A program made the position numbers and the translations under genes. A DNA stretch of 64,000 bases, taken from NCBI GenBank assembly GCA_017643495.1, contig JAEPNK010000002.1, positions 434,001 through 498,000 on the forward strand. Reading direction: 5' to 3'. Positions 19,285-33,718 of this stretch are shown piece after piece. The DNA comes from Rhizobiaceae bacterium (GTDB lineage: Bacteria > Pseudomonadota > Alphaproteobacteria > Rhizobiales > Rhizobiaceae). The notes beneath the pieces are model-generated. The model made no database searches. It had not been told where the DNA came from and saw only the letters and a list, made by a program, of their open reading frames with translations. Position 1 is the stretch's first letter. Each line of letters starts with the position of its first letter.

Positions 19285-20295
19285 ATGACAAATCCGCTAA
19301 ACGAACTGATCGCTGAAAAAGGTGTTCTGCTAGCTGATGGCGCCACCGGTACCACATTGTTCGGCATGGGGCTGGAAGCTGGCGCTGCACCAGAATTGTG
19401 GAATGTCGACAAGCCTGAAAACATCCGTCAGTTGCATCAGGGGTTTATTGATGCCGGATCGGACATCATCCTTACAAACTCGTTTGGCGGCACAAGGCAT
19501 CGCCTGAAGCTGCACAATGCGCAAGACCGTGTTCATGAACTGAACAAGCACGCAGGTCTTGTGGCCCGCGATGTGGCCGAAGCTGCGGACCGAAAGGTAA
19601 TCGTTGCCGGTTCGGTCGGCCCAACCGGCGAATTGCTCGCACCACTCGGCTCTCTCACAATTGATGAATGCGTTGAATCCTTCAAGGAACAAATGGCGGG
19701 CCTGAAAGAAGGTACGGTCGATGTACTCTGGATCGAGACAATGTCATCGGTTGAGGAGATCCAGGCTGCAGCAAAAGCTGCGGAAGCTGTAGGATTGCCA
19801 TATGTTGTGACGGCCTCCTTTGATACCGCAGGTCGTACGATGATGGGGCTCCTGCCCGGTGATATTCATACCGTGGTCAGCGAGGGCGAAAAGCCTGTAG
19901 CGCTTGGAGCCAATTGTGGTGTCGGCGCATCGGACTTGCTGGCTTCCGTTCTGGAAATGACAAAGGCCGAACCTGAAGCCATTATTGTTGCCAAGGCAAA
20001 TTGTGGCATACCGCAAGTCAGTGGCGATGAAGTCATATATACGGGCACGCCGGAACTGATGTATGACTACACACATCTGGCAATGGATGCAGGCGCAAAG
20101 ATTGTTGGGGGATGTTGTGGAACTTCCTGCGTTCATCTGGCCGAAATGCGCAAGGCAATTGATGACTACAAACCCGGCGACAGGCCCGATATCGATACAA
20201 TCGAGCAGAAGATCGGCCCGTTGGTAAACCGTCCCGCCGCCGCAAATGATGCCGGTTCGCAGCGCACACGCAGGGGTGGCCGTCGTCGGGCTTGA
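19285..20295 (+). CDS. Homocysteine S-methyltransferase domain protein (betaine/methyl-corrinoid type)
   Basis: This 336-residue homocysteine-binding barrel has zinc-ligand motifs ANCGVG near residue 210 and GGCCGTSC near 277, and an N-terminal LLADGATGTTLFGMG. It is equivalent in size to the first module of cobalamin-dependent MetH. It could accept methyl groups either from betaine or from the separate corrinoid protein encoded at 24.5 kb; with separate pterin, B12 and activator genes nearby, the split-MetH reading is favoured. The C terminus is an Ala/Gly linker followed by the basic tail RTRRGGRRRA, shared in style with three neighbouring proteins. A SahR-like site lies upstream. Confidence 0.85.
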   Translation: MTNPLNELIAEKGVLLADGATGTTLFGMGLEAGAAPELWNVDKPENIRQLHQGFIDAGSDIILTNSFGGTRHRLKLHNAQDRVHELNKHAGLVARDVAEAADRKVIVAGSVGPTGELLAPLGSLTIDECVESFKEQMAGLKEGTVDVLWIETMSSVEEIQAAAKAAEAVGLPYVVTASFDTAGRTMMGLLPGDIHTVVSEGEKPVALGANCGVGASDLLASVLEMTKAEPEAIIVAKANCGIPQVSGDEVIYTGTPELMYDYTHLAMDAGAKIVGGCCGTSCVHLAEMRKAIDDYKPGDRPDIDTIEQKIGPLVNRPAAANDAGSQRTRRGGRRRA

Positions 20296-20328
20296 GCTTT
20301 ATCCGGCCAACAAAGCTGCTCTTACACT

Positions 20329-21009
20329 TCAATAACCACGATAGGATCGCATATGAAATTCGATCTGGTCGGATGAATATCTGTATCCCTTGCCAACCGG
20401 GCAAGCATTTCGGGCAGCACACCCGGAAAGCATACAGTCCGGGTCAATTCGTGTATCGATGTGTGAAAAACAACGGGCCACGTCCAATCCACTGGACGTA
20501 AATGCTGATACAGGACAGGCACTTAGGCAAGGTTTTTCAACGCAGTCGTCACATGGATGAATCAATTCATGAGCTTGTTGAATCAGTTTCTCAACTTCGA
20601 CTGAAAGCGAATGGACATCTGTGAAAACCAGAAGCGCCCTGTAAGCATGCCACAAACCGAATTCAGGATGAATCAGAATGCCAAGGGGCGACTGCCTCAG
20701 TCCGGTGGCCTCAACAGCATATTGCTGAAACGGGGGATAAGGCTGGTCAAACGGAAAACATGCCTCGCATTCAAGCGACATTGCCAATTCTTCGATGTGC
20801 CTTCTGGTCCACCGGTCGAGCGGATTGTCCTTGCCATCAATTGCTTCCGCCGAGTGGGAAAAGGCCTCCCACATCGCACCACCAATATTGCCCACAAGAA
20901 TGCCTGTCCTGCCATCAAGCAGTTGCAAACCTCCAAACAAATTCATCCCCAGCCCCGCAAGCGCGTGCTTCAATTCTGAAAGGCTAGACGGAGAGTTTTC
21001 CCCTGGCAT
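20329..21009 (-). CDS. 4Fe-4S ferredoxin-type protein beside the MttB homologue
   Basis: The 226-residue protein has a C-terminal Cys-rich region. PCDDCVEKPCLSACPVSAF (about residues 152-170) gives the 4Fe-4S pattern, and later Cys residues in CMLSGCAARNACPVG suggest a second cluster. The N-terminal 140 residues are unassigned. It resembles the ferredoxin half of QueG-like proteins but lacks a recognisable corrinoid reductase domain. It lies 76 bases downstream of the mttB-like gene on the same strand. An electron-transfer role in reactivating the oxidised corrinoid protein is plausible but only inferred. Confidence 0.7.
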   Translation of the reverse strand: MPGENSPSSLSELKHALAGLGMNLFGGLQLLDGRTGILVGNIGGAMWEAFSHSAEAIDGKDNPLDRWTRRHIEELAMSLECEACFPFDQPYPPFQQYAVEATGLRQSPLGILIHPEFGLWHAYRALLVFTDVHSLSVEVEKLIQQAHELIHPCDDCVEKPCLSACPVSAFTSSGLDVARCFSHIDTRIDPDCMLSGCAARNACPVGKGYRYSSDQIEFHMRSYRGY

Positions 21010-21085
21010 TCAGCCCCCAGACATTGCGGATTATCGTATTGCCCGCGATTTCCCTGGCACGTGTTTCCAGGGCTGATCTCTCATT

Positions 21086-22648
21086 TCAACTGAAAGCATC
21101 AGGCATGGAATCCTTTTTGGTTCGTATAAAGTTTTGCAGCGCTTCATCCACCGCCGGGTCAAGATCGGGCGCCACATACGCATCAAGCCATTTTCTTGCC
21201 GTCAGGTTGGCACGTTGCTCAGCGCGCATGCTTCCTTCAACTTCCCATTGTTCATAGGAGTTGTTGTCGGCGACTGTAGAAGCAAAAAATGCCGTCTCGA
21301 AATTCTGCTGCGTATGCTCGCAACCAAGATAATGATTTCCGGGACCAACCTCGCGAATTGCGGAAAGCGCCAGACCATTCTCACTCATGTCGATACCTGC
21401 GGCCATTTTCTGTGCTGCTGCCAGTTGGTCTGCATCCATGATGAATTTTTCATAACTCGAAACCAGTCCGCCCTCGAGCCAACCAGCAGCATGCAGCATG
21501 AAATTCACCCCACCCGCCATTGCCGGTTGCAATGTATTGGCACTTTCATAGGCTGCTTGTGCATCGGGCAGTTTTGAGCCGGTAAGGGATCCTCCCGAAC
21601 GGAATGGCAGGTTGTATCGTCTGGCAAACTGGGCAGCGCCCATCAATACTTGTGCAGGTTCAGGCGTTCCGAAAGCAGGTGCGCCTGATTGCATGGAGAT
21701 GGCGGTTGCAAAAGTGCCGAAGATTACCGGAGAACCCGGACGACAGAGTTGGGAAAAGGCGATTGCGCTTGTCGCCTCGCAAAGAACCTGGGTCAGCGTT
21801 CCCGCAACCGTTACCGGTGACATGGCCCCACCGACAATGAACGGTGAGACGATGGAAGCCTGATTGGCACGGGCATATACTTTCAGCGCCCCCAGCATTG
21901 TGCCATCAAGCGTCATGGGCGAGTTGCAGTTAATCAGGCTGACCAGAACACAGTTCTGGTCCACGAATTCCTCGCCAAACACGAGTTTTGCCATTTCCAC
22001 TGTGTCTTCGGCACGTTCAGGCGCGGTGACAGAGCCCATAAACGGCTTGTCCGAATACTTGACATGACTGTAAACCATGTCGAGATGGCGTTTGTTGACC
22101 GGTATGTCACAGGGTTCGCAGACTGTACCGCCGGAATGATGCATGGCTGGTGCCATATAAGCGAGTTTTACGAAATTCTGAAAATCATCAATCGTCGCAT
22201 ATCGGCGCTCTCCCTCAAGGTCACGCACAAAGGGAGGCCCATAGACCGGAGCAAAGACCGTTGTTTTGCCACCAATTTCCACACTGCGCTCAGGATTGCG
22301 CGCATGCTGGGTAAAGCTGGCAGGTGCTGTTTTCATCAGCTCGCGACAAAGCCCCTTGGGAAAATGAACCCGGTCACCCCTTACATCGGCACCCGCGTCT
22401 TTCCACATGCCAAGTGCTTCTTCGTCTTCAGAGTAAACAACGCCCACTTCCTCCATCAGAAGGTCGGCATTGTGCTCAATCAGTTCGATTGATTCCTGTG
22501 AAAGGATATCGGTTGGCTCAAGCTTTCGATGGATGTAGGGCAGACTGGTGAGCTTCATGCCACCACGGGCCTGCCTGCGCCCAGAGGCTCCACCGCCCGT
22601 CCTGCGTCCGCGTCCCCGTGGGGTGGCCTCAACTGCTTCATTGCTCAT
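21086..22648 (-). CDS. Non-pyrrolysine trimethylamine-methyltransferase (MttB) family protein, glycine betaine methyltransferase-like
   Basis: This 520-residue member of the MttB superfamily transfers a methyl group from a quaternary or tertiary amine to a corrinoid protein. The reading frame contains no in-frame TAG, so it is the non-pyrrolysine type related to MtgB (glycine betaine). The ATG at 22648 has AGAGAGG nine bases upstream; a longer frame to 22747 is less likely. The first 30 residues form an Arg/Gly-rich extension (PRGRGRRTGGG, then GRRQARGG) before the barrel begins. Corrinoid and DUF1638 genes lie 2 kb away. The actual substrate (glycine betaine, proline betaine, carnitine or another amine) cannot be told from the sequence. 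Confidence 0.85.
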   Translation of the reverse strand: MSNEAVEATPRGRGRRTGGGASGRRQARGGMKLTSLPYIHRKLEPTDILSQESIELIEHNADLLMEEVGVVYSEDEEALGMWKDAGADVRGDRVHFPKGLCRELMKTAPASFTQHARNPERSVEIGGKTTVFAPVYGPPFVRDLEGERRYATIDDFQNFVKLAYMAPAMHHSGGTVCEPCDIPVNKRHLDMVYSHVKYSDKPFMGSVTAPERAEDTVEMAKLVFGEEFVDQNCVLVSLINCNSPMTLDGTMLGALKVYARANQASIVSPFIVGGAMSPVTVAGTLTQVLCEATSAIAFSQLCRPGSPVIFGTFATAISMQSGAPAFGTPEPAQVLMGAAQFARRYNLPFRSGGSLTGSKLPDAQAAYESANTLQPAMAGGVNFMLHAAGWLEGGLVSSYEKFIMDADQLAAAQKMAAGIDMSENGLALSAIREVGPGNHYLGCEHTQQNFETAFFASTVADNNSYEQWEVEGSMRAEQRANLTARKWLDAYVAPDLDPAVDEALQNFIRTKKDSMPDAFS

Positions 22649-22776
22649 GGTCAAAAACCTCTCTTCATCCGGGAATACAATACCCGGGTTCCGTATGTTA
22701 GTCTTTATGAGAATGTTGGACAGTTGCAGTCTGTCTCGATGCGCCAATGGCTGGCGTTTTCTGAAAACCGGTAGCC

Positions 22777-22804
22777 GTCCGCAATCCTGAATCAGGTCGC
22801 GGAC
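22777..22804 (-). terminator. Hairpin after the symporter gene (possible terminator)
   Basis: GTCCGC (22777-22782) pairs with GCGGAC (22799-22804), with an inner CCTGA-A-TCAGG (22786-22796). On the minus strand it is followed by a GGTTTTC stretch. It lies between the symporter stop (22827) and the mttB-like start. Weak U-tract, so confidence is low; some read-through into mttB is possible. Confidence 0.35.
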
Positions 22805-22826
22805 AGCCGTTTTTACGGATGGACGG

Positions 22827-24149
22827 TCATTCTGCCGCCTGACCGACAGGGAACTGTGTCAGGCTGTCCGTATCCGTAACGCCCGCTTCGGGATCATTGT
22901 AAATGGTTTCATCAAGCTTGCCTTCACTCTTGGCAACGATTGATGAAACAACCGCGTCACCGGAAACATTCACGGCTGTCCGTATCATGTCCATCAACCG
23001 GTCAACGCCCAGAACCAGGCCAATGCCTTCAACAGGCAGCCCGACTTGCGCAAACACCATGGAAAGCATGATCAACCCCACACCGGGTACACCTGCAGTT
23101 CCGATTGATGCCAGCACAGACATCAATATAACTGTCAGATAACCGGCAATGCCCAGTTCAACGCCATATACATTGGCGATGAACACCGTGGCCACGCCTT
23201 GCATGATGGCAGTACCATCCATGTTGATGGTAGCCCCGAAAGGAACAGTAAATGAGGCAACGGAATTGTTGACGCCCATCCGGCTGGTCACTGTACGCAT
23301 CGTCACCGGTATGGTTGCATTGGAACTTGCTGTACTGAACGCAAATACCTGCACATTCCTGATTTTTCTGAGAAACATGACCGGGCTGAGGCCCGAAAGA
23401 AGTTTCAACAAGAACATCTGCGTGACAAACAGGTGTATCAGCAAGGCCGAAACCAGAACGACAACGTAACCGGCAAGCGACATCAGCAGATCAAGCCCCA
23501 GATCCGCAATTGAGCGGGCTATCAGGGCAAAGACTGCATAAGGCGCAACTGCCATGACGATGTTCACCATCTTCATCATCACTTCGTTGAGAACCTCGGC
23601 GCCATCAATAACGCCTTTGGCCCTTTCTCCGACCATCAGAATGGCTATTCCGATCAGAATCGAGAAAAAGATGATCGGCAGCATGTCTCCATTTGCCATT
23701 GCGTTGATGGGATTGCCCGGAATGATGTCTATCAGCACTTGCGCGAGAGGAGGCGATTCCTTGCCCTCAAATGTTGATGCCGAGACTTGCTCAAAACCGG
23801 CACCAATTCCGCTTGCCGACGCAAGCATGATGGCGACAGCAATCGCAATCGCCGTTGTCAGCATGTAGAGCCCGAAAGCCTTGGAGCCGACCCTGCCCAG
23901 CATGCTGATGTTTCCGATCCCGCAAACACCGCAGATAAGTGAAAAGAACACCAGTGGAACCACCAGCATTTTCAATGAATTGACGAACATCTTGCCAACT
24001 ACATTGAACAATCCCTCAACCACATAAACGTTGGTGAATGAACCGTCCGCATTCAGCCCGGTAAGGTTTATAATCAACCCCACCAGGATACCCAGTCCCA
24101 TTCCGACCAGTACTTTTACTGTTAGACTTGTCTTGTTCGCTTCTGCCAT
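22827..24149 (-). CDS. Dicarboxylate/amino acid:cation symporter (SDF/DAACS family)
   Basis: This 440-residue inner-membrane transporter has family hallmarks: STASSNATIPVTM near residue 270, PFGATINMDGTAI near 300, and GVPGVGLIMLSMVF near 355. Such proteins import glutamate, aspartate or C4-dicarboxylates with Na+ or H+. The ATG at 24149 is preceded by AAGGAGG with a 6-base gap; the frame is open to 24287 but no comparable site lies there. Its position beside mttB and opposite the corrinoid gene makes import of an amino-acid-like substrate such as a betaine possible, but the family rarely takes quaternary amines. Confidence 0.88.
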   Translation of the reverse strand: MAEANKTSLTVKVLVGMGLGILVGLIINLTGLNADGSFTNVYVVEGLFNVVGKMFVNSLKMLVVPLVFFSLICGVCGIGNISMLGRVGSKAFGLYMLTTAIAIAVAIMLASASGIGAGFEQVSASTFEGKESPPLAQVLIDIIPGNPINAMANGDMLPIIFFSILIGIAILMVGERAKGVIDGAEVLNEVMMKMVNIVMAVAPYAVFALIARSIADLGLDLLMSLAGYVVVLVSALLIHLFVTQMFLLKLLSGLSPVMFLRKIRNVQVFAFSTASSNATIPVTMRTVTSRMGVNNSVASFTVPFGATINMDGTAIMQGVATVFIANVYGVELGIAGYLTVILMSVLASIGTAGVPGVGLIMLSMVFAQVGLPVEGIGLVLGVDRLMDMIRTAVNVSGDAVVSSIVAKSEGKLDETIYNDPEAGVTDTDSLTQFPVGQAAE

Positions 24150-24499
24150 GACTTTCCTCCTTGGATCCCCAGTCTGGCCGTCTCTGGCTGACCACGGACC
24201 CCCTTCCCTAACCAGCGCTGACGGAAAGCCGGACAAAACAGCGAAATCTTGTCCTGCTGCCGGGAAATCAAACCACAAAATCGTCAAAAAGCAAATTTTG
24301 CCTGTTTATATCTCCGTCGCATCCGTTCACCATACAGTCGCAAACCGGAACTGCCGGGGAGAAATTCCTTTGCTAAATGAGCAAACTAAAGCATTGTGCG
24401 GTCAATCTGGTGGACTAGGTCCGGATTCGCTGTTCAGCATGAAAAGACCATCGGGTTGGCCTGCATAAACTGGTCTGCCCTGTGTAAACGGAGAACGTC
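24150..24499. other. 350-base divergent promoter region between symporter and corrinoid protein genes
   Basis: No gene-like frame is supported. The region must hold both promoters. Two related dyads are visible: GCAAATTTTGC at 24291-24301 and TTTGCT-N5-AGCAAA at 24369-24385. They share TTTGC/GCAAA half-sites and may be operators for one regulator. A TTTATATC at 24305-24312 resembles only half of the SahR-like site seen elsewhere. Confidence 0.45.
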
Positions 24500-25201
24500 A
24501 TGTCCGAAGAAGAAGATGAAATCATCCTGTCAGAACTCAGTGATGATGAGCTTGTGGCACAAATGCATGATGACCTCTATGACGGCCTGAAAGAGGAGAT
24601 ACTCGAGGGAACCAACATTCTCCTGGAGCGTGGATGGACGCCTTATGATGTGCTTACAAAAGCACTTGTTGAGGGCATGCGTATCGTAGGCATCGACTTC
24701 CGCGATGGTATTCTGTTCGTCCCTGAAGTGCTTCTGGCAGCCAATGCGATGAAGGCAGGCATGGGAATTCTCCGCCCGCTTCTGGCAGAAACCGGCGCAC
24801 CAAAGCTCGGAACCATGGTAATTGGAACCGTGAAGGGGGATATTCACGATATTGGCAAGAATCTTGTCGGCATGATGATGGAAGGTGCAGGCTTTGACGT
24901 ACATGACCTGGGCATCAACAACGATGTGGATTCATATCTTGCCGGCATCGAGGAACACAAACCCGATATTCTTGGTATGTCAGCCCTGCTGACAACCACC
25001 ATGCCTTACATGAAAGTGGTCATCGATACATTGGTGGAAAAAGGCATGCGGGATGATTACACTATTCTTGTCGGTGGCGCTCCACTCAATGAAGAGTTCG
25101 GCGATGCCATTGGTGCAGATGCCTATTGCCGCGATGCAGCAGTAGCCGTTGAAAAAGCCAAGGACTTCATGGCTCGCAAACACAACAGCATGAATTCCTG
25201 A
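24500..25201 (+). CDS. Corrinoid (cobalamin-binding) methyl-carrier protein
   Basis: The 233-residue protein has an N-terminal four-helix cap (about residues 15-100) and a C-terminal B12-binding Rossmann domain. The cobalt-ligating motif GDIHDIGKNLV contains His116, followed by GMSALLTTTM and VGGAPLN, the usual SxL and GG elements. It matches methyl carriers of the MttB/MtgC type and the B12 module of MetH in size. It could accept methyl from the MttB homologue or from methyl-THF via the 30.7-kb methyltransferase, and pass it to homocysteine. GGAGA precedes the ATG. DUF1638 follows 88 bases later on the same strand. Confidence 0.9.
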   Translation: MSEEEDEIILSELSDDELVAQMHDDLYDGLKEEILEGTNILLERGWTPYDVLTKALVEGMRIVGIDFRDGILFVPEVLLAANAMKAGMGILRPLLAETGAPKLGTMVIGTVKGDIHDIGKNLVGMMMEGAGFDVHDLGINNDVDSYLAGIEEHKPDILGMSALLTTTMPYMKVVIDTLVEKGMRDDYTILVGGAPLNEEFGDAIGADAYCRDAAVAVEKAKDFMARKHNSMNS

Positions 25202-25289
25202 AGCCATTTGCATCACAAATTCAGGGTGACTTCTACGAGACACGTGTTCACCCTGCGCATAAAACTGTGCATCCACGCTTCGAGAGGAA

Positions 25290-25895
25290 ATGTTGGAAAA
25301 CAGGCCCGAAAAATTGCGAGTAATTGCCTGCGGGATGATCGCGCGGGAGGTACTGGCTGTTAATCAGCAGTTGGGGTTTGAGCATGTTGATCTCAAATGC
25401 CTGCCGGCGGCCTACCATCATTTTCCCGAGCGCATTGCTCCTGCAATGGATGCCGCCATTCTCGAGGCACGGGCTGAGGGATACCAGCACATATTCGTGG
25501 GATATGCCGACTGCGGTACCGGGGGCGAGCTCGACAAGATATGCGAGAAGCACAATGTGGAGCGCATTGCCGGACCTCATTGTTTCTCATTTTACATGGG
25601 TAATCAGCAGTTCGAAGCGGCAGATGACGACTTTCTGACAACCTTTTTCATAACGGATTTTCTGGCTCGTCATTTCGATACCTTTATGAAAAGGCCATTG
25701 GGGTTGGACCGTCACCCTGAGCTGCGCGAAATGTATTTTGCCAACTATACCCGCGCGCTTTATCTGGCCCAAACAGACGACTCTGAACTGGATGAAAAAG
25801 CCCGTGAGGCAGCAACATTTCTTGGGCTGGAATACGAGAGACAATTTACCGGATTCGGCGACCTGGTTCCGGCGATAAACAAGGCTGCCGGCTAG
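25290..25895 (+). CDS. DUF1638 domain-containing protein
   Basis: This 201-residue cytoplasmic protein of unknown function has conserved-looking segments RVIACGMIAREV (residues 10-21), VGYADCGTGGELDKIC near 70 and GPHCFSFYMG near 92. The several Cys and His residues suggest metal or cofactor binding. DUF1638 genes recur beside corrinoid methyltransferase genes in my recollection, and here it follows the corrinoid gene directly. GAGAGG is only two bases from the ATG; a TTG at 25293 is better spaced, so the first residue is uncertain. Confidence 0.82.
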   Translation: MLENRPEKLRVIACGMIAREVLAVNQQLGFEHVDLKCLPAAYHHFPERIAPAMDAAILEARAEGYQHIFVGYADCGTGGELDKICEKHNVERIAGPHCFSFYMGNQQFEAADDDFLTTFFITDFLARHFDTFMKRPLGLDRHPELREMYFANYTRALYLAQTDDSELDEKAREAATFLGLEYERQFTGFGDLVPAINKAAG

Positions 25896-25907
25896 GCTGG
25901 CTATCGG

Positions 25908-27086
25908 TCAGTTCTGCAAGGCTATAAGCGGCGTCAGCTCTTCGTCATTGGCTCCCCGCAACCCGCGCGGCTTGCGTGCCCAACTGTCCGGTCCCTGCAA
26001 TCCAAGCTGGAACCCGGCAGAATAGAGACTTCTCATCCGTACCGGGTCAAAATCAAGCGACTTGGTGGAAATCGGTATTTCGTCAGGTATGGAGACCACA
26101 CGGAAATCCATCCCTGTGTTTCTCGCCCGTATGTAATGGCGGAAAATCGTGTCTGACTGAATCTCGCGCATAAGTTCGAAAATTGTTTTCTGCGCAATAC
26201 TGGCAAGATTCGGTTTTACCGGCTGGGCGTCATTGTATTCCTGCGTTGTGCCATTGACGACCAGATATAGGTTTTTGTCAGGTGCCGTGGTCTGCCCCAT
26301 GAAATCCGCATAAAGAATTGGCTCTTTCACGCCTCCGTCAACATGGGCTTGCCTAAGCTGGGTGCCCCGTTGGGGTTTGATGTAAACCGGCTGGAAAAAA
26401 CCAGGTACAGCGGCAGATGCCCGCAAAACCTTCTGGAAGTGCTGAAGTGGGTCAGTGCGTCCGCCCAATGCAATTTTGCCCATGTCCCATATCACCAGTT
26501 CACCTGCATCCAGGTTCGTAGTAGCAACATACAGCCGGCGTCCACGCTGGTGTTCCGCAGCAACCCTGCGCAAAACATCCTCTGTGATATACTTTTCAAT
26601 CTGGGCTTTTAGCGGTGTGTTGTCGTAGAGGCTGTCTCCCAGAACACCACGCAGACCACGCTTTTTGAAGATCGTGTCATTCGTCTGGCTGGTGTAGAGC
26701 TCACGAGCAAGATCATCCCATTGCGGCCCCAGGAAAGCAAAAACAGACAGCAACGCTCCCGTGGAAACACCAGTAACCACATCAAATTCGGGACGTTTTC
26801 CGCTCTTCGTCCACCCTGCAAGGACACCCGCACCAAAAGCACCATCCGGACCACCGGCAGAAAGTGCAAGCACATCATGTACATTGTCTCTTGTACGAAC
26901 AAGCGGAGGTTGTTCGGGCAAGTTCCGGTTAACGGCTTCTTGCGGCAATAATGTCCGAACGGATTCACCTTCATCGGGGCGGGTTGCACAGGCTGCAAGG
27001 AATGCCGCAAGCAAAATCACAAGGGCACGGGGAAATCCGATCGCCCTGCGATTTGCCAAACTCTGTGATGACCTGTTGGAATGCAT
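25908..27086 (-). CDS. Patatin-like phospholipase, predicted lipoprotein
   Basis: The protein has a lipoprotein signal ending LLAAFLAAC, so it is probably lipid-anchored outside the cytoplasm. The patatin fold is shown by the oxyanion segment GGPDGAFGAGVL, nucleophile motif GVSTGAL and the catalytic-dyad VDGGV. The family hydrolyses acyl esters of phospholipids or other lipids. I use the ATG at 27086 because it places the Cys at residue 33; the frame continues to 27173, which would put 62 residues before the Cys. It converges with the DUF1638 gene and seems unrelated to it. Confidence 0.85.
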   Translation of the reverse strand: MHSNRSSQSLANRRAIGFPRALVILLAAFLAACATRPDEGESVRTLLPQEAVNRNLPEQPPLVRTRDNVHDVLALSAGGPDGAFGAGVLAGWTKSGKRPEFDVVTGVSTGALLSVFAFLGPQWDDLARELYTSQTNDTIFKKRGLRGVLGDSLYDNTPLKAQIEKYITEDVLRRVAAEHQRGRRLYVATTNLDAGELVIWDMGKIALGGRTDPLQHFQKVLRASAAVPGFFQPVYIKPQRGTQLRQAHVDGGVKEPILYADFMGQTTAPDKNLYLVVNGTTQEYNDAQPVKPNLASIAQKTIFELMREIQSDTIFRHYIRARNTGMDFRVVSIPDEIPISTKSLDFDPVRMRSLYSAGFQLGLQGPDSWARKPRGLRGANDEELTPLIALQN

Positions 27087-27237
27087 CCTTACCGCTTTAT
27101 CCCGACGGTCTGACAACCGTTGTTTCCGTTGATCTGTCGAAAACTGATATTGCATTCTTGCACGTTGCAACAATCAATTTAAACCATATTTTCATTAATG
27201 GTTAACCATGTAGCTGAGACTCGGATACCAGTACAAG

Positions 27238-27690
27238 ATGTATGATAACCCCCTCGAGAGCTTTACGCCCGGTACTGAAATAACACTTGGGCCAAAATCA
27301 GTCAGCCGTGACGAAATTATTGAATTCGCCACTGAATTCGACCCCATCTACTTCCATACGGATGAAGTGGCTGCAAAAAATTCAATGTTGGGGGGGCTTG
27401 TTGCTTCAGGCTTCCATACATGCTCCCTGGCCATGCGCATGTTGTGCGATGCCTATATCACAAAATCGACTTCCCAGGGCGCTCCCGGCATTGACGAATG
27501 CAAATGGCTTGCACCTGTTCGTCCCGGCGACACGATCTCCGGAGTTGCCCGCGTCAAGAACAGTCGCCGGTCCAAATCCAGGCCTGAAATACTGATAGTG
27601 GGTTTTGAATTTGAATTCTGGAACCAAAACAAAACCCCGGTGCTCTTCATGAGCAATTCCGCAATGTTCAGAATTCCGGAAGGTGCTTGA
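27238..27690 (+). CDS. MaoC-family hotdog dehydratase, first of a pair
   Basis: This 150-residue single-hotdog protein has IEFATEFDPIYFHTDEVAAK near residue 22 and GGLVASGFHTCSLAMRM near 45, the MaoC hydratase-2 motif region (Asp and His). The family hydrates enoyl-CoA or related acyl thioesters. Its stop lies two bases before the next MaoC gene, suggesting the two chains form a heterodimer like split two-domain hydratases. The substrate is unknown. Confidence 0.85.
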   Translation: MYDNPLESFTPGTEITLGPKSVSRDEIIEFATEFDPIYFHTDEVAAKNSMLGGLVASGFHTCSLAMRMLCDAYITKSTSQGAPGIDECKWLAPVRPGDTISGVARVKNSRRSKSRPEILIVGFEFEFWNQNKTPVLFMSNSAMFRIPEGA

Positions 27691-27692
27691 CC

Positions 27693-28172
27693 ATGCAGCA
27701 GTCTCTCACGCCCCCTTACCTTTCAACTGGCATTGTAAACCAGCTTGGAGACCACACATTTACGTCTGCGGAAATTACGAAGTTTGCAAAAAACTTTGAC
27801 CCCCAGTTCTTTCATGTCGATCCTGAAGCAGCCCGCGACTCATTGTTCGGAGGCCATTGTGCATCCGGTTGGCACACCATTTCCATGTGGATGCGAAAAC
27901 AGCGAGACTTTGCAAAATCCGAAGCTGCGAATCTGCAAAAGAACGGCCACAATCCGCCTGAATACGGCCCCTCTCCCGGCGTCAGGAACATTAAATGGTT
28001 AAAACCCGTATTTGCCGGAGACACCATTTCCTATTTTACCGAAATCGCCGGTCTCCGTCCAAGTGGGTCTCGTCCGGGCTGGCACCTGCTTTCGCAGAAA
28101 TGCGGCGGTAGAAACCAGAACGGACAAACTGTCCTGGAATTTGACAGCACGGTATTCATCCGCATTTCGTGA
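27693..28172 (+). CDS. MaoC-family hotdog dehydratase, second of a pair
   Basis: The 159-residue paralogue of the preceding protein has FAKNFDPQFFHVDPEAAR near residue 31 and GGHCASGWHTISMWMRK near 52. Both keep the Asp/His hydratase positions. The ATG at 27693 is used; the TTG at 27687 overlaps the previous stop. It is encoded directly after the first MaoC protein and before the PF13769-MTHFR pair. Confidence 0.84.
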   Translation: MQQSLTPPYLSTGIVNQLGDHTFTSAEITKFAKNFDPQFFHVDPEAARDSLFGGHCASGWHTISMWMRKQRDFAKSEAANLQKNGHNPPEYGPSPGVRNIKWLKPVFAGDTISYFTEIAGLRPSGSRPGWHLLSQKCGGRNQNGQTVLEFDSTVFIRIS

Positions 28173-28283
28173 CTGCAAGCGCCGTTTTTCACTTATCACG
28201 CGTCGCTTGTGGTGAAGCTGCAATCAACACTTTCAAACATTCTTCTGGCATGTCGCGAGTCCGGAAGGCTCAGGAGTACTGAC

Positions 28284-28586
28284 ATGGCAAAACTGCAGAT
28301 CGTATATTGGCGAGACATCCCTGCCCAGGTCATCGTGAAGGCCGGGCGCAGAAACGTTGCCAAACGCGAACTGTCGCTTCGTTTCACCGAAGCCATCGAC
28401 ATGTGTGCCATGCGTACCGGAGCTGCGGAGACAGACGACTATCTGGCAGAATGGCGTCGCTCAGATCCTGTAGAGGTCAGTGATGATCTCGAAGCTGAGG
28501 CAGACAAGGCAGCAGCGGCGCTTGAGGCTGAATATGACCGTGACCGTTTGGTCGCATTGGTTGCGTCAGGAGGGACAAGCACATGA
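28284..28586 (+). CDS. Small PF13769-type ('virulence factor' family) protein coupled to an MTHFR-like gene
   Basis: This 100-residue cytoplasmic protein begins MAKLQIVYWRDIPAQVIVK and contains KRELSLRFTEAIDMCAMRTG, features I associate with the family named 'virulence factor' in Pfam. Nothing in it indicates virulence. The ATG at 28284 follows CAGGAG. Its stop overlaps the start of the MTHFR-like gene by four bases, so the two are translationally coupled and may form a complex. I infer a partner or assembly role in one-carbon metabolism. Confidence 0.75.
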   Translation: MAKLQIVYWRDIPAQVIVKAGRRNVAKRELSLRFTEAIDMCAMRTGAAETDDYLAEWRRSDPVEVSDDLEAEADKAAAALEAEYDRDRLVALVASGGTST

Positions 28587-29479
28587 ATGTCATGACCAAA
28601 ATCATGCCGGGTGACGGAAGCAAAACCGATCTGGAAATTCCCGCCATGAACAAGATTTCAGCATCCATAGAAGTTTCACCCAAACAGGCTGTTGAAAACC
28701 AGGACCTCCCCGGCCTGTTCCCGGAAGGCACCCGCGTATACATCACGGATGTCGGAACAGACACCGCAGAAACGTTGAGCGCTGGCGCAAAACGTGTAGC
28801 TGATCTCGGCTACACCCCGGTTCCCCATTTCGCATCACGTCGCCTCACAACAAAAGAAGCCCTTGAAGACCGCATTCGCATGATGACGCAGGATGCAGGG
28901 GTTACGGACGTACTGGTGATTGGTGGTGGACTGGAAAAGGAAGCTGGTGAATTTGACAGCACGATAAAGGTCCTGGAAACCGGACTCTTTGAAAAATATG
29001 GCATTTCACATATGGGCGTTGCAGGTCATCCTGAGGGTTCACCGGATTTCAGTGATGAAATCGCTATGGAAGCATTGCATCAGAAACAGGAATTTGCCCA
29101 AAACAGTGGCATTGATATGCGCATTGTCACACAATTTGGCTTCGATGCTGAAAAATTCACATCCTGGGCAGAAAGGCTTTCAGCACAGGGTGTTCACCTG
29201 CCGGTACATCTGGGTGTGGCTGGGCCGGCCAAAATCACAACATTGATCAAGTTTGCCGCCATGTGTGGCGTCGGGAATTCCTTGTCATTTCTGAAAAAGC
29301 GCGGCGCTGCGATAATGACCATGGCAGCAGGATTTGACCCTGATGAAATCGTCAATCCGATTGAAGCGTTTGCACAAAGCCCGGCCAATACCACAATCTG
29401 CCAAGTCCATGTGTTTCCGTTTGGCGGGGTGAAAAAATCTTCCGAATGGCTTCAGGCGCGCGGCACCTGGAATCTCTGA
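28583..29479 (+). CDS. Methylenetetrahydrofolate reductase-like protein (MetF paralogue)
   Basis: The 298-residue protein resembles MTHFR over its barrel: ASIEVSPKQ near residue 23 holds a Glu where MetF has its catalytic Glu, VPHFASRRLT near 75 matches the folate-binding region, and VLVIGGG, GVAGHPEG and LHLGVAGPAK-type segments follow. It differs from the canonical metF encoded convergently 87 bases away. It probably oxidises or reduces methyl/methylene-THF, perhaps in the direction that drains methyl groups removed by the corrinoid system. It is coupled to the PF13769 gene by a 4-base overlap. Confidence 0.75.
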   Translation: MNVMTKIMPGDGSKTDLEIPAMNKISASIEVSPKQAVENQDLPGLFPEGTRVYITDVGTDTAETLSAGAKRVADLGYTPVPHFASRRLTTKEALEDRIRMMTQDAGVTDVLVIGGGLEKEAGEFDSTIKVLETGLFEKYGISHMGVAGHPEGSPDFSDEIAMEALHQKQEFAQNSGIDMRIVTQFGFDAEKFTSWAERLSAQGVHLPVHLGVAGPAKITTLIKFAAMCGVGNSLSFLKKRGAAIMTMAAGFDPDEIVNPIEAFAQSPANTTICQVHVFPFGGVKKSSEWLQARGTWNL

Positions 29480-29487
29480 AAGACCAA

Positions 29488-29548
29488 CGCGAAAGCAGGA
29501 AGTTCCTGCGGGAGAGAGACCCAGATGCAGGAACTTCCGCCCTTCGCG
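29488..29548. terminator. Long inverted repeat between the convergent MTHFR-like and metF genes
   Basis: GGAAGTTCCTGC (29498-29509) pairs perfectly with GCAGGAACTTCC (29527-29538), and the outer arms CGCGAA/TTCGCG extend it imperfectly to 29488-29548. The left arm is itself a 15-base palindrome (29495-29509). No U-run follows on either strand, so it is a bidirectional stabiliser or factor-dependent terminator at most. Confidence 0.55.
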
Positions 29549-29566
29549 AATGCCGCCTGACGTATA

Positions 29567-30421
29567 TCAGGCAACTTTTCGCTTGTTCTGTTGGTGTAAT
29601 TCCTTTGCGGAATTGAACGTTTCAGCAGCGAGCTTGGCAAGCTCCACCTTGTTGAGAGTGTAAATGTGAATGGCTTCAAAGCCGGCACATGCCAGATCGT
29701 GCACTTGCGCCTTCAGCAACTCGGAGGCGACTTCAATCGCGCTCGAACCCATCGTTTCATCAGAAAACGCCTTGTGAACGTGATCCGGAATGTGTGTCTT
29801 GCACTGCTCTGCCATTTCGCAGACTTTGGCAAAATTGTAGATTGGCAGGATACCCGGAACAATCGGAATGGTAATATCCGCAGCCCGTGCACGTTCGACA
29901 AACTCGTAAAAAACGGAATTGTCAAAAAAGAACTGGGTTATGGCAAGTGAAGCACCAGCATCCTGTTTGGCCTTCAGGACTTCAATGTCAGCTTCCGACG
30001 ACTTGGCCTTGGGATGGATTTCCGGATAACAGGCCACCGCTATCTCGAAGGGATGGCACTCTTTGAGAGCAGCAACAAATGCAGGCGTATCCTCAAACGG
30101 AAGATTGTCAGAACCGTCACGAGGATCCCCTCTCAAGGCGACAATCTGTCGAATCTCCGCATTCCAGAGTTCATCCGCAAATGAACGTATGTCATCCTGG
30201 CTTGAACCGGTGAATGTCAGGTGGCTGGCCGTACGTACACCTGTTTCGGTCTGAAACCTGCGGACCGCATCAAGTGTACCGTTCCGGTCTGATCCACCGG
30301 CACCATACGTGACACTCTGGAAATCAGGCTGGAATTGCGCTAACAGCTTGACAGTCTCGGCCAACTGGTTGCTGGCCTTTTCACTTCTGCCTGGAAAATA
30401 TTCAAAACTGATGCCGGACAT
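29567..30421 (-). CDS. metF: 5,10-methylenetetrahydrofolate reductase
   Basis: This 284-residue flavoprotein interconverts methylene-THF and methyl-THF. The N-terminal ISFEYFPGRSEKA holds the catalytic Glu; QSVTYGAGGS near residue 36, ASHLTFTGSS near 64, ALRGDPRDGS near 95 and ITQFFFDN near 160 are canonical MetF motifs. A perfect SahR-like palindrome lies 64 bases upstream. It diverges from the methyl-THF:corrinoid methyltransferase gene and converges with an MTHFR paralogue. It supplies methyl-THF for methionine synthesis. Confidence 0.93.
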   Translation of the reverse strand: MSGISFEYFPGRSEKASNQLAETVKLLAQFQPDFQSVTYGAGGSDRNGTLDAVRRFQTETGVRTASHLTFTGSSQDDIRSFADELWNAEIRQIVALRGDPRDGSDNLPFEDTPAFVAALKECHPFEIAVACYPEIHPKAKSSEADIEVLKAKQDAGASLAITQFFFDNSVFYEFVERARAADITIPIVPGILPIYNFAKVCEMAEQCKTHIPDHVHKAFSDETMGSSAIEVASELLKAQVHDLACAGFEAIHIYTLNKVELAKLAAETFNSAKELHQQNKRKVA

Positions 30422-30484
30422 TGCGGTGGGTCTCCTTCCTGACTGTCATGAAGGATACCACAACGCAGACAAATGTAAATAGCA

Positions 30485-30504
30485 ATATAAAGATATCTTT
30501 ATAT
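30485..30504. promoter_or_regulatory. Perfect 20-bp palindrome between metF and the methyltransferase gene (SahR-like operator)
   Basis: ATATAAAGATATCTTTATAT is an exact palindrome, 64 bases upstream of metF and 190 bases upstream of the divergent methyl-THF:corrinoid methyltransferase start. It matches the element before the homocysteine methyltransferase at 17 of 20 positions. The sequence is close to what I recall for SahR (ArsR family) sites, which sense S-adenosylhomocysteine. No ArsR gene is in the window. The remainder of 30422-30694 shows no gene. Confidence 0.72.
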
Positions 30505-30694
30505 CTTGATTTTCAATGCCTGGAATGTCTATAAACCCTCAAAAACCGGACTTGGTCCGCTTGCGTTACAAGTCGTAAAAGCATCAACTCATGTCGCGTG
30601 AATGAGTGTTGAAATCGTATAAAGGTGCGAAGAGGAATCACGTGAACCGGTCGCAATTCCGCAACCGGTCAAAACAACCATCAAGGGTAGGATT

Positions 30695-31651
30695 ATGACG
30701 CACACCATTGTCGCTTCAGAAAAGAAAGAGGTCATTATCGGATTTGACCAGCCATTCTGCGTGATTGGTGAGCGGATCAACCCGACCGGCCGCAAAAAAC
30801 TGGCTGCAGAAATGCAGGAGGGCAATTTTGAAACCGTCAAGAAAGACGCCTTGGAACAGGTCGCTGCCGGAGCAACAATTCTGGACGTGAACGCCGGAGT
30901 AACTGCGGTTAATCCCAACGAGACCGAACCTCCCCTGCTCGTACAAACCCTGGAAATGGTTCAGGAACTGGTTGACGTTCCACTTTCCATTGATTCTTCG
31001 GTCACCTCTGCCATTGAAGCAGGTCTGAAGGTTGCCAAAGGCCGCCCTCTTGTAAACTCGGTAACAGGCGAAGAAGAAAAGCTCGAAGCCATTCTACCGC
31101 TTATCAAGAAATACGATGTTCCTGTCGTTGCCATTTCGAACGACGAAACCGGCATTTCTGAGGACCCTGATGTCCGTTTCGCTGTTGCGAAGAAAATCGT
31201 CGAACGGGCAGCGGATTACGGCATCAAGCCGCAGGATATTGTGGTTGACCCTCTGGTAATGCCGATTGGCGCAATGGGAACAGCCGGCTTGCAGGTCTTC
31301 AAACTGGTTCGCCGCCTACGTGAAGAACTTGGTGTTAACACGACTTGTGGCCTGTCCAACATTTCCTTTGGCTTGCCGCACCGTCATGGAATCAATGCAG
31401 CCTTTATTCCAATGGTGATTGCCTCAGGCATGACATCGGCCATCATGAACCCGTGCCGGCCAGCTGAAATGGAAGCTGTTCACGGTGCAAATGTGCTGAA
31501 TGGAACAGATCAGGATTGTGCAAACTGGATCATGACCTATCGGGACCATACGCCGGCTGCAGCTGGCTCCCCGGCAACTCCTGTTGCCGCAACCGGAGGA
31601 CGTTCCGGGCGCCGCGGCGGACGCGCGGCACGGCGTGGTGCGGGAGCATAA
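30695..31651 (+). CDS. Methyltetrahydrofolate:corrinoid methyltransferase (pterin-binding domain)
   Basis: This 318-residue pterin-binding barrel has CVIGERINPTGRKKL near residue 24, GATILDVNAGV near 54, LSIDSSV near 97 and TTCGLSNISFGLPHR near 216, as in MetH module 2 and the AcsE/MtgA-type enzymes. It transfers methyl between THF and the corrinoid protein. The last 30 or so residues are an Ala/Pro/Gly linker followed by an Arg/Gly tail (GGRSGRRGGRAARRGAGA). The RACo-type activator starts 30 bases downstream. The SahR-like site shared with metF suggests methionine-cycle control. Confidence 0.9.
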   Translation: MTHTIVASEKKEVIIGFDQPFCVIGERINPTGRKKLAAEMQEGNFETVKKDALEQVAAGATILDVNAGVTAVNPNETEPPLLVQTLEMVQELVDVPLSIDSSVTSAIEAGLKVAKGRPLVNSVTGEEEKLEAILPLIKKYDVPVVAISNDETGISEDPDVRFAVAKKIVERAADYGIKPQDIVVDPLVMPIGAMGTAGLQVFKLVRRLREELGVNTTCGLSNISFGLPHRHGINAAFIPMVIASGMTSAIMNPCRPAEMEAVHGANVLNGTDQDCANWIMTYRDHTPAAAGSPATPVAATGGRSGRRGGRAARRGAGA

Positions 31652-31681
31652 GCGTTAACCCCAGGGTGATATGCTCACGAA

Positions 31682-33718
31682 ATGAAAGCAGATAAAGACC
31701 CTCTTGTACTTTTCATGCCATCGGGCAAGCGTGGCCGGTTCCCGACAGGAACCCCCATACTCGATGCCGCACGTGAACTCGGGGTCTATGTGGAATCAGT
31801 CTGTGGCGGCCGGGGTATTTGCGGCCGCTGCCAGATAGAGTTGCAACAAGGTCATTTCGCCAAGCATGGCATAACGTCGACCGCTGAAAGCATTTCACCA
31901 CCCGGCGCCAAGGAAGCCCGATACGCCGAAAAGCGCGAATTGAAAGATGGCAGACGTCTGTCCTGTTCGGCCACGATACAGGGCGACCTCGTTGTCGACA
32001 TACCGCAAGATGCGCAAATGAACGCCCAGGTCGTACGGAAAGTGGATGACGGCCGCTTCATAGAGCGCAATCCGGCTGTCCAGCTTTGCTATGTCGAGGT
32101 GGAACAACCGGACATGCACAAGCCCCTTGGTGACCTTGACCGTGTCAAGCAGGCCCTGGAAAGGGACTGGGGCTGGACTGATATCATGGTCGACAGTCAC
32201 CTCATGCCCGGCATCCAGAAAAACCTCAGGGATGGCGACTGGAAGGTTACGGCCGTCATCCACAAGGATATGGAAACCTCAAGGCCGTCGCTGATCGCCC
32301 TGTATCCGGGGTTGAAAAATGCAGCATATGGCATCGCATGCGATATTGGCTCGACAACCATCGCCCTGCATCTCGTGTCGCTTCTCTCCGGCGCCACCAT
32401 AGCCTCATCCGGAATATCCAATCCGCAGATCCGGTTTGGAGAGGATTTGATGAGCAGGGTTTCATACGTGATGATGAATCCCGAAGGACGAGAGGCAATG
32501 ACCGTTGCAGTCCGGGAAGCTCTTAATGGTTTGATCGGAAATGTCTGCTCTGAAGCAGGAATTGAGCGTGATGACATTTACGACATGGTATTTGTCGGAA
32601 ACCCGATCATGCATCACCTCTTTCTTGGCATTGATCCGACCGAACTGGGCGGCGCGCCTTTCGCGCTGGCTGTATCCGGTGCCGTACATACATGGGCTTA
32701 CGATCTGGACCTTTCAGTCAATCGCGGTGCGCGCGTTTACGTGCTGCCCTGCATCGCCGGACACGTTGGCGCAGACGCTGCCGCTGTAACCCTCTGTGAA
32801 GGCCCCCACCGGCAAGACAAACAAATGCTTGTCGTCGATGTTGGAACGAATGCGGAAATCGTGCTTGGCAACAGCGAGCGTACTGTGGCCGCCTCCTCGC
32901 CGACCGGTCCGGCTTTTGAAGGTGCGGAAATTTCCTGTGGCCAGCGTGCAGCGCCAGGTGCAATCGAGCGGGTGCGGATCAATCCAGAAACCTTGGAACC
33001 GCGCATCCGGGTCATCGGCGTTGATCTGTGGTCGGATGAAGAAGGGTTTGACGAAGCCGTTGAAACCGTGGGGGTCACCGGTGTTTGCGGATCGGCGATT
33101 ATAGAAGTCGTCGCCGAAATGTTCCTGGCTGGCATCATTTCGCAGGATGGGGTTGTCGATGGCTCGATGGCCACGCGCTCAGACCGCATAATCGAGGATG
33201 GCAGAACCTATGCCTATCGCCTTTGGAAGGGCAAACAGGACCTCGTCATCCGTCAGACCGATGTACGGGCCATACAATTGGCCAAGGCGGCCTTGTATGC
33301 AGGCATCAAACTCCTGATGGACAAACTCGGCATAGAACGCGTCGACACGATATCCTTTGCAGGCGCGTTCGGAACGTTCATCGATCCGAAATACGCCATG
33401 GTCCTCGGGCTAATACCCGACTGTGATCTCGCCAATGTCAAAGCAGTAGGAAACGCGGCTGGATATGGCGCGAAAATGGCCTTGCTCAACCGGGACTCAC
33501 GTCGGGAAATCGAAGATACCGTTATGGGGATCGAGAAGATTGAAACGGCGCTGGAAACAGAATTTCAAAACCACTTCGTGAATGCGATGGCTTTACCCAA
33601 CAAGGTTGAGCCGTTTCCAAGGCTCGCCGAGCAAGTCGACTTGCCGAAGCCCAAACAACTTGAATCTGCCGGGACAGGTGAAGGAGGAAGAAGGCGCAGG
33701 AGACGATCCCGCGCCTGA
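31682..33718 (+). CDS. RACo/RamA-type corrinoid-protein reductive activator (2Fe-2S plus ASKHA domain)
   Basis: The 678-residue protein has an N-terminal 2Fe-2S ferredoxin domain with Cys41, Cys47 and Cys50 (VCGGRGICGRCQI) and a fourth Cys near 95. Middle and C-terminal ASKHA-type ATPase domains follow, with phosphate motifs such as CDIGSTTIALHL near 220 and VVDVGTNAEI near 383. Such proteins use ATP to reduce inactive Co(II) corrinoid to Co(I). Here it would replace the AdoMet-dependent reactivation domain of MetH and/or serve the MttB system. The C terminus ends GGRRRRRRSRA. It follows the methyltransferase gene by 30 bases in one operon. Confidence 0.92.
   Translation: MKADKDPLVLFMPSGKRGRFPTGTPILDAARELGVYVESVCGGRGICGRCQIELQQGHFAKHGITSTAESISPPGAKEARYAEKRELKDGRRLSCSATIQGDLVVDIPQDAQMNAQVVRKVDDGRFIERNPAVQLCYVEVEQPDMHKPLGDLDRVKQALERDWGWTDIMVDSHLMPGIQKNLRDGDWKVTAVIHKDMETSRPSLIALYPGLKNAAYGIACDIGSTTIALHLVSLLSGATIASSGISNPQIRFGEDLMSRVSYVMMNPEGREAMTVAVREALNGLIGNVCSEAGIERDDIYDMVFVGNPIMHHLFLGIDPTELGGAPFALAVSGAVHTWAYDLDLSVNRGARVYVLPCIAGHVGADAAAVTLCEGPHRQDKQMLVVDVGTNAEIVLGNSERTVAASSPTGPAFEGAEISCGQRAAPGAIERVRINPETLEPRIRVIGVDLWSDEEGFDEAVETVGVTGVCGSAIIEVVAEMFLAGIISQDGVVDGSMATRSDRIIEDGRTYAYRLWKGKQDLVIRQTDVRAIQLAKAALYAGIKLLMDKLGIERVDTISFAGAFGTFIDPKYAMVLGLIPDCDLANVKAVGNAAGYGAKMALLNRDSRREIEDTVMGIEKIETALETEFQNHFVNAMALPNKVEPFPRLAEQVDLPKPKQLESAGTGEGGRRRRRRSRA

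Follow-up and report, generated by a model that had tools for sequence, protein, structure and literature searches.

Four enzymes of a cobalamin (B12)-dependent methyl-transfer system, built on unrelated folds, carry a terminal peptide of the same arginine- and glycine-rich kind. They are encoded in a 64,000-nt stretch (hereafter the window) of contig JAEPNK010000002.1, positions 434,001 to 498,000, from the 3.74-Mb genome of a Rhizobiaceae bacterium (GCA_017643495.1). The peptide, hereafter the tag, is N-terminal on the MttB-family methyltransferase and C-terminal on the methyl-tetrahydrofolate (THF):corrinoid methyltransferase MtgD, the homocysteine methyltransferase MtgE and the corrinoid activase RACo. 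It keeps arginine rather than lysine independent of G+C content, and it is nearly restricted to this B12 methyltransferase system. We propose, at a probability of roughly 0.5, that the tag may be a common docking element by which these four enzymes bind the corrinoid protein MtgC.

The tails quoted for the four enzymes in a first-pass annotation of the window are all present in the translations, and their coordinates were re-read (Table 1). Read from the ATG at 22648, the MttB-family protein starts with MSNEAVEATPRGRGRRTGGGASGRRQARGG; the listed 553-aa open reading frame (ORF) begins at a TTG upstream. As a background, we used a set of 403 ORFs called with a crude caller from 458 kb of this genome (the window and 20 stretches). 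At least six Arg occur in the last 20 residues of seven of the 403, among them MtgE, MtgD and RACo, a background low enough to reject a chance origin of the tags. The few further RRGG-type matches in the set include a second MttB-family protein; the N-terminal background is approximate, as the caller's upstream start concealed the MttB tag. A CGN-coded RRGGR pattern, which overlooks AGR codons and looser tags, gave 27 matches in four genomes, about the same number as the reversed control. Of these, 17 are in the reading frame of an ORF within the size range scanned: four are MtgD tails, two are MttB tags, three come within 17 residues of the end of frames that are short or unidentified, and the other eight lie deeper in their frames.

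To score orthologs, we required at least five Arg within a span of 20 residues at the terminus concerned, having excluded readings cut by contig ends or with too short a match. The 113 MtgD loci comprise 20 relatives, 80 named loci that rank as the best of at least 590 matches and 13 further loci, including one from a different class of the phylum; the sets may overlap in species, and the searches were centered on Pseudomonadota. By this measure, 105/113 MtgD, 85/87 RACo, 10/10 MtgE and 50/50 MttB readings at MtgD loci are tagged, and with at least four Arg in 12 residues, all 113 MtgD proteins are. Another set of MtgD loci was tagged in 56/56 cases by both measures, at least four of these being genes already counted, and a separate search for MtgE orthologs returned the tail in 20/20. 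Orthologs outside the genus, the family and even the order of the window genome have the tails as well, as does one genome from a second class of the phylum, and the tag persists while the linker joining it to the fold varies by lineage. The possibility raised at the outset, that the tails would prove absent or neutral in most orthologs, is thus not what we find. Of the two RACo exceptions, the one at locus L215 (10004-12190) comes from a draft genome in which the frame is split into two overlapping pieces; the other piece still ends Arg-rich.

The first-pass annotation had placed the tag on four enzymes; all four carry it, and it extends beyond them to distant MttB paralogs. Fourteen MtgD-positive genomes contain 62 matches to PF06253 (13/14 genomes positive, with up to ten matches per genome). 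All 50 paralogs read out of these 62, 44 scored by script and six by eye and then by count, have the N-terminal R/G stretch; identity to the window protein goes as low as about 29-40% among them, and a distant subfamily is represented.

Arginine outnumbers lysine in the terminal regions of all four families, with R:K of 704:39 in MtgD, 578:58 in RACo, 66:10 in MtgE and 366:39 in MttB. Across loci of 33-71% G+C, the Arg count does not follow base composition (Spearman −0.13 for MtgD, 0.08 for RACo, 0.03 for MtgE and −0.03 for MttB). At the 33% G+C locus, the MtgD tail retains nine Arg and no Lys, and the RACo tail has six Arg and four Lys. Based on this lack of correlation and the retained MtgD tag, we reject a base-composition artifact.

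Neighboring genes rarely reach five Arg in 20 residues: DUF1638 in 3/58 readings, MetF2 in 1/65, MetF1 in 0/11, a PF13769 protein in 1/102 and an MMACHC-like protein in 2/32. None of five stand-alone homocysteine methyltransferase paralogs (L104, L109-L112) has a tail, and the tail as a general property of this enzyme family is therefore rejected. Loci L103 and L105-L108 were left uncounted, since these are MetH chains in which the homocysteine domain is internal and the ends read are locus edges. At seven paralogous corrinoid loci (L291-L297), which hold corrinoid, MtgD-like and mostly RACo-like genes, the tag is found on 0/7 MtgD-like and 0/6 RACo-like proteins; the corrinoid domain of L291 sits within a 630-aa frame containing a masked stretch. 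One genome, G256, has such an untagged set (L295) alongside a tagged MtgD (L157). Among 29 genomes without a full-length MtgD match, we excluded four incomplete ones; in the other 25, MTTB is present in one and RACo in two, both of the untagged type.

The first-pass annotation considered the tails to be no part of the known folds. In agreement, no tail falls within a Pfam-matched C-terminal fold, and the solved anaerobic homologs do not extend as far as the tags. The anaerobic structures for MtgB/MttB (2qne, 9yce), RACo (3zyy) and MeTr (2e7f) have, by sequence, the same folds as the window enzymes but, unlike them, align with no room for tags. The sequence of 4yyc, a close MttB homolog, contains the tag. 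In MtgD, the tagged enzyme that was modelled, the tag is predicted to be disordered: the structural model (mean predicted local distance difference test score, pLDDT, of 74 from a 15-sequence alignment) falls below pLDDT 50 at residues 292-318, and also at residues 18-28 and in two short loops.

We take the corrinoid protein, from knowledge of the pathway, to be the single expected partner common to the tagged enzymes. An acidic MtgC N terminus accompanying the tails had been suggested, and the two do co-occur: 56/57 MtgC readings have 6-12 acidic and 0-2 basic residues in a stretch of 22-27, the 57th being cut by a contig start, and the N terminus is conserved in sequence (alignment A2). In a structural model of MtgC (mean pLDDT 90, 27 sequences), residues 1-10 average 66 and residues 15-27 are predicted to form a helix; the model's Foldseek matches are MttC, MtaC and MetH B12 modules.

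These observations suggest how docking might work. The MttB-family enzymes, MtgD, MtgE and RACo would each have to reach the cobalamin on MtgC. A flexible linker ending in a guanidinium-rich patch could capture MtgC, with the conserved acidic N terminus as the likeliest contact, thereby raising local concentration, possibly with a gain in flux, and allowing several enzymes to exchange on one carrier. The tags would then play, among separate chains, the part that covalent linkers have in MetH. Docking, a putative role, is the best of the explanations we considered. A bolder and rather doubtful version treats the Arg/Gly tag, seen in no fewer than four unrelated enzyme families, as an address code for a B12 methyl-transfer hub. 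Every bearer of it, the MttB-family matches included, would then plug into a single corrinoid carrier, and Arg tails and acidic MtgC might together form a condensate.

Several points weigh against docking on MtgC. In the five corrinoid proteins of untagged loci that could be read, the N extension differs from that of MtgC yet is itself net acidic (8-14 acidic and 4-6 basic in 45-52 residues), and we therefore reject an acidic corrinoid N terminus as an exclusive mark of tagged systems. Because of these proteins, acidity alone does not track the tags, and the MtgC N terminus is only a candidate acceptor. One RACo, at L309, is truly tail-less though the MtgD there is tagged. The lone MTTB of the MtgD-negative genomes (G012, 85% complete) is tagged, which is either an assembly gap or a counter-example. 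A single shared docking site would make the tagged enzymes compete. Finally, in the portion of PMC12366255 available to us, purified Phaeobacter inhibens Bmt (the MtgE gene PGA1_c13370) makes methionine from dimethylsulfoniopropionate or betaine without a cofactor, and MtgE may therefore not always need MtgC.

The lack of tracking by corrinoid-protein acidity would also fit tags that bind another polyanion, such as RNA, nucleoid DNA or polyphosphate, with the enzymes co-localized indirectly or moonlighting. Disordered tails rich in Arg and Gly typify nucleic-acid binders, and Arg is retained over Lys in the tags; the likeness to an RGG-type binder is one of composition only. A general nucleic-acid role would not predict a tag that is carried by the enzymes that partner the corrinoid protein but is missing from MetF, DUF1638 and the paralogous corrinoid locus, and we consider this alternative unlikely. 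We also considered folate polyglutamate as a partner and discarded it, since neither RACo nor MtgE is a folate enzyme.

The tags could instead bind acidic patches elsewhere on MtgC, or the PF13769 protein could be the real adaptor. This protein is encoded at 102/113 MtgD loci, and the orthologs inspected have more acidic than basic residues. Its charge is nonetheless mixed (21 acidic and 16 basic in L052), and it is not among the P. inhibens methionine-synthesis genes named in the available part of PMC5764234; we regard this explanation as improbable. Least credible of all is that the tails have no function and are neutral ends drifting in composition. The wide differences in exact sequence and linker between lineages and the tail-less RACo would fit such drift, whereas persistence over 113 loci, the missing correlation with G+C, the nine Arg and no Lys of the MtgD tail at 33% G+C, the low background and the matched paralogs without tails all speak against it.

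On the basis of domains and neighborhood, we assign the window genes to a split B12 methionine synthase/glycine-betaine demethylase, MtgBCDE with a RACo/RamA-type activase (Table 1). By Pfam and NCBIfam matches, the homocysteine, pterin, corrinoid and MttB modules are separate genes encoded together (19285-33718), and a RamA/RACo-like activase and DUF1638 accompany them, as expected of the MtgBCDE system. A putative B12 reactivation role can be assigned to the DUF1638 protein by homology to Phaeobacter. The set contains a MetF in addition to the MetF-like protein. Among the matches listed, the best named ones for the window MtgD are Hyphomicrobiales, Rhodobacterales and Kiloniellales records.

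Table 1. Features of the tagged B12 methyltransferase locus, in window coordinates.
Feature	Position	Strand	Basis or remark
MtgE-type homocysteine methyltransferase (HMT)	19285..20295	+	PF02574; NCBIfam PRK07534 over cut-off
MtgE C-terminal tag RTRRGGRRRA	20263..20292	+	Same kind of end in 20/20 orthologs
MttB-family (MtgB-type) methyltransferase	21086..22648	-	PF06253, E 7.5e-225
MttB N-terminal tag PRGRGRRTGGGASGRRQARGG	22559..22621	-	Read from translation
Corrinoid protein MtgC, proposed hub	24500..25201	+	PF02607 and PF02310
Acidic MtgC N terminus MSEEEDEIILSELSDDEL, candidate tag acceptor	24500..24553	+	Acidic and conserved in orthologs
DUF1638 protein, untagged	25290..25895	+	PF07796
MetF-like protein (MetF2 candidate), untagged	28583..29479	+	PF02219
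MtgD, methyl-THF:corrinoid methyltransferase	30695..31651	+	PF00809; PRK07535 over cut-off
MtgD C-terminal tag GGRSGRRGGRAARRGAGA	31595..31648	+	Read from translation
RACo/RamA-type corrinoid activase	31682..33718	+	PF14574, PF17651, PF17650, PF00111
RACo C-terminal tag GGRRRRRRSRA	33683..33715	+	Read from translation

Two smaller genes share the locus. The PF13769 protein (100 aa, window 28284-28586, + strand) has a WRDIPAQV motif; its family is named Virulence factor, yet the protein may be a so far overlooked part of the system. A Cys-rich protein adjoining MtgE (window 20329-21009, − strand), with a sub-threshold MMACHC match, is possibly B12-related and occurs at 32/113 MtgD loci.

Elsewhere in the same genome is a second MetH-type set (G000:C11:612609-614638), in which one 917-aa frame has matches to B12-cap and pterin domains and a separate, untagged 364-aa frame is a homocysteine methyltransferase. 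Near it lies an orphan 102-aa ORF, P0006 (G000:C11:615434-615739), which ends in PRRRGGARARRMLL. We set P0006 aside, as its own genome is the only one of 31 to contain it and it has no Pfam match.

The metabolic system itself is already known. The window genes match the gene sets of the P. inhibens split methionine synthase and the Ruegeria pomeroyi MtgBCDE system as given in the accessible parts of PMC5764234 and PMC12478193, with the same domains split over separate genes together with a RamA-like protein and DUF1638. According to these portions, genetics ties MtgC, MtgD, MtgE, the RamA-like protein and DUF1638 together, and MtgBCDE is needed for methionine synthesis and growth on betaine in the two species; PMC12478193 reports the system as a major oceanic route of N-osmolyte demethylation and as the roseobacter methionine synthase. 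Unlike our analysis, the passages of both papers available to us leave the tails unmentioned, and the words arginine, tail and disordered do not appear in the PMC12478193 main text. In line with the view that the tails were undescribed, full-text searches of open-licence papers on corrinoid and cobalamin methyltransferases with arginine-rich or disordered segments gave no paper, and among the looser matches listed, titles and the openings of abstracts showed nothing on such tails; the shared tag appears to be undescribed within the literature covered.

If the tags dock, they would explain how separate chains replace the covalent linkers of MetH and how several methyl donors can share a carrier; they would also provide a sequence marker for enzymes feeding the hub. 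If the address-code idea were true, tagged proteins could lead to new methyl donors.

One short terminal tag on unrelated enzymes of one pathway resembles the peptides of encapsulin cargo and microcompartment encapsulation. Most of those peptides are hydrophobic or amphipathic, with a shell as their binding partner; the tag here is Arg/Gly-rich. MtaB-MtaC offers a docking precedent in which the likeness is an N-terminal addition on the corrinoid protein: in the part of PMC9842639 available to us, the extra N-terminal domain of MtaC helps to dock MtaB and stabilizes the complex. The MtaC addition is a folded domain seated in a groove, whereas the window system has a short acidic stretch on the corrinoid protein and Arg-rich tags on the enzymes, with putative binding between them.

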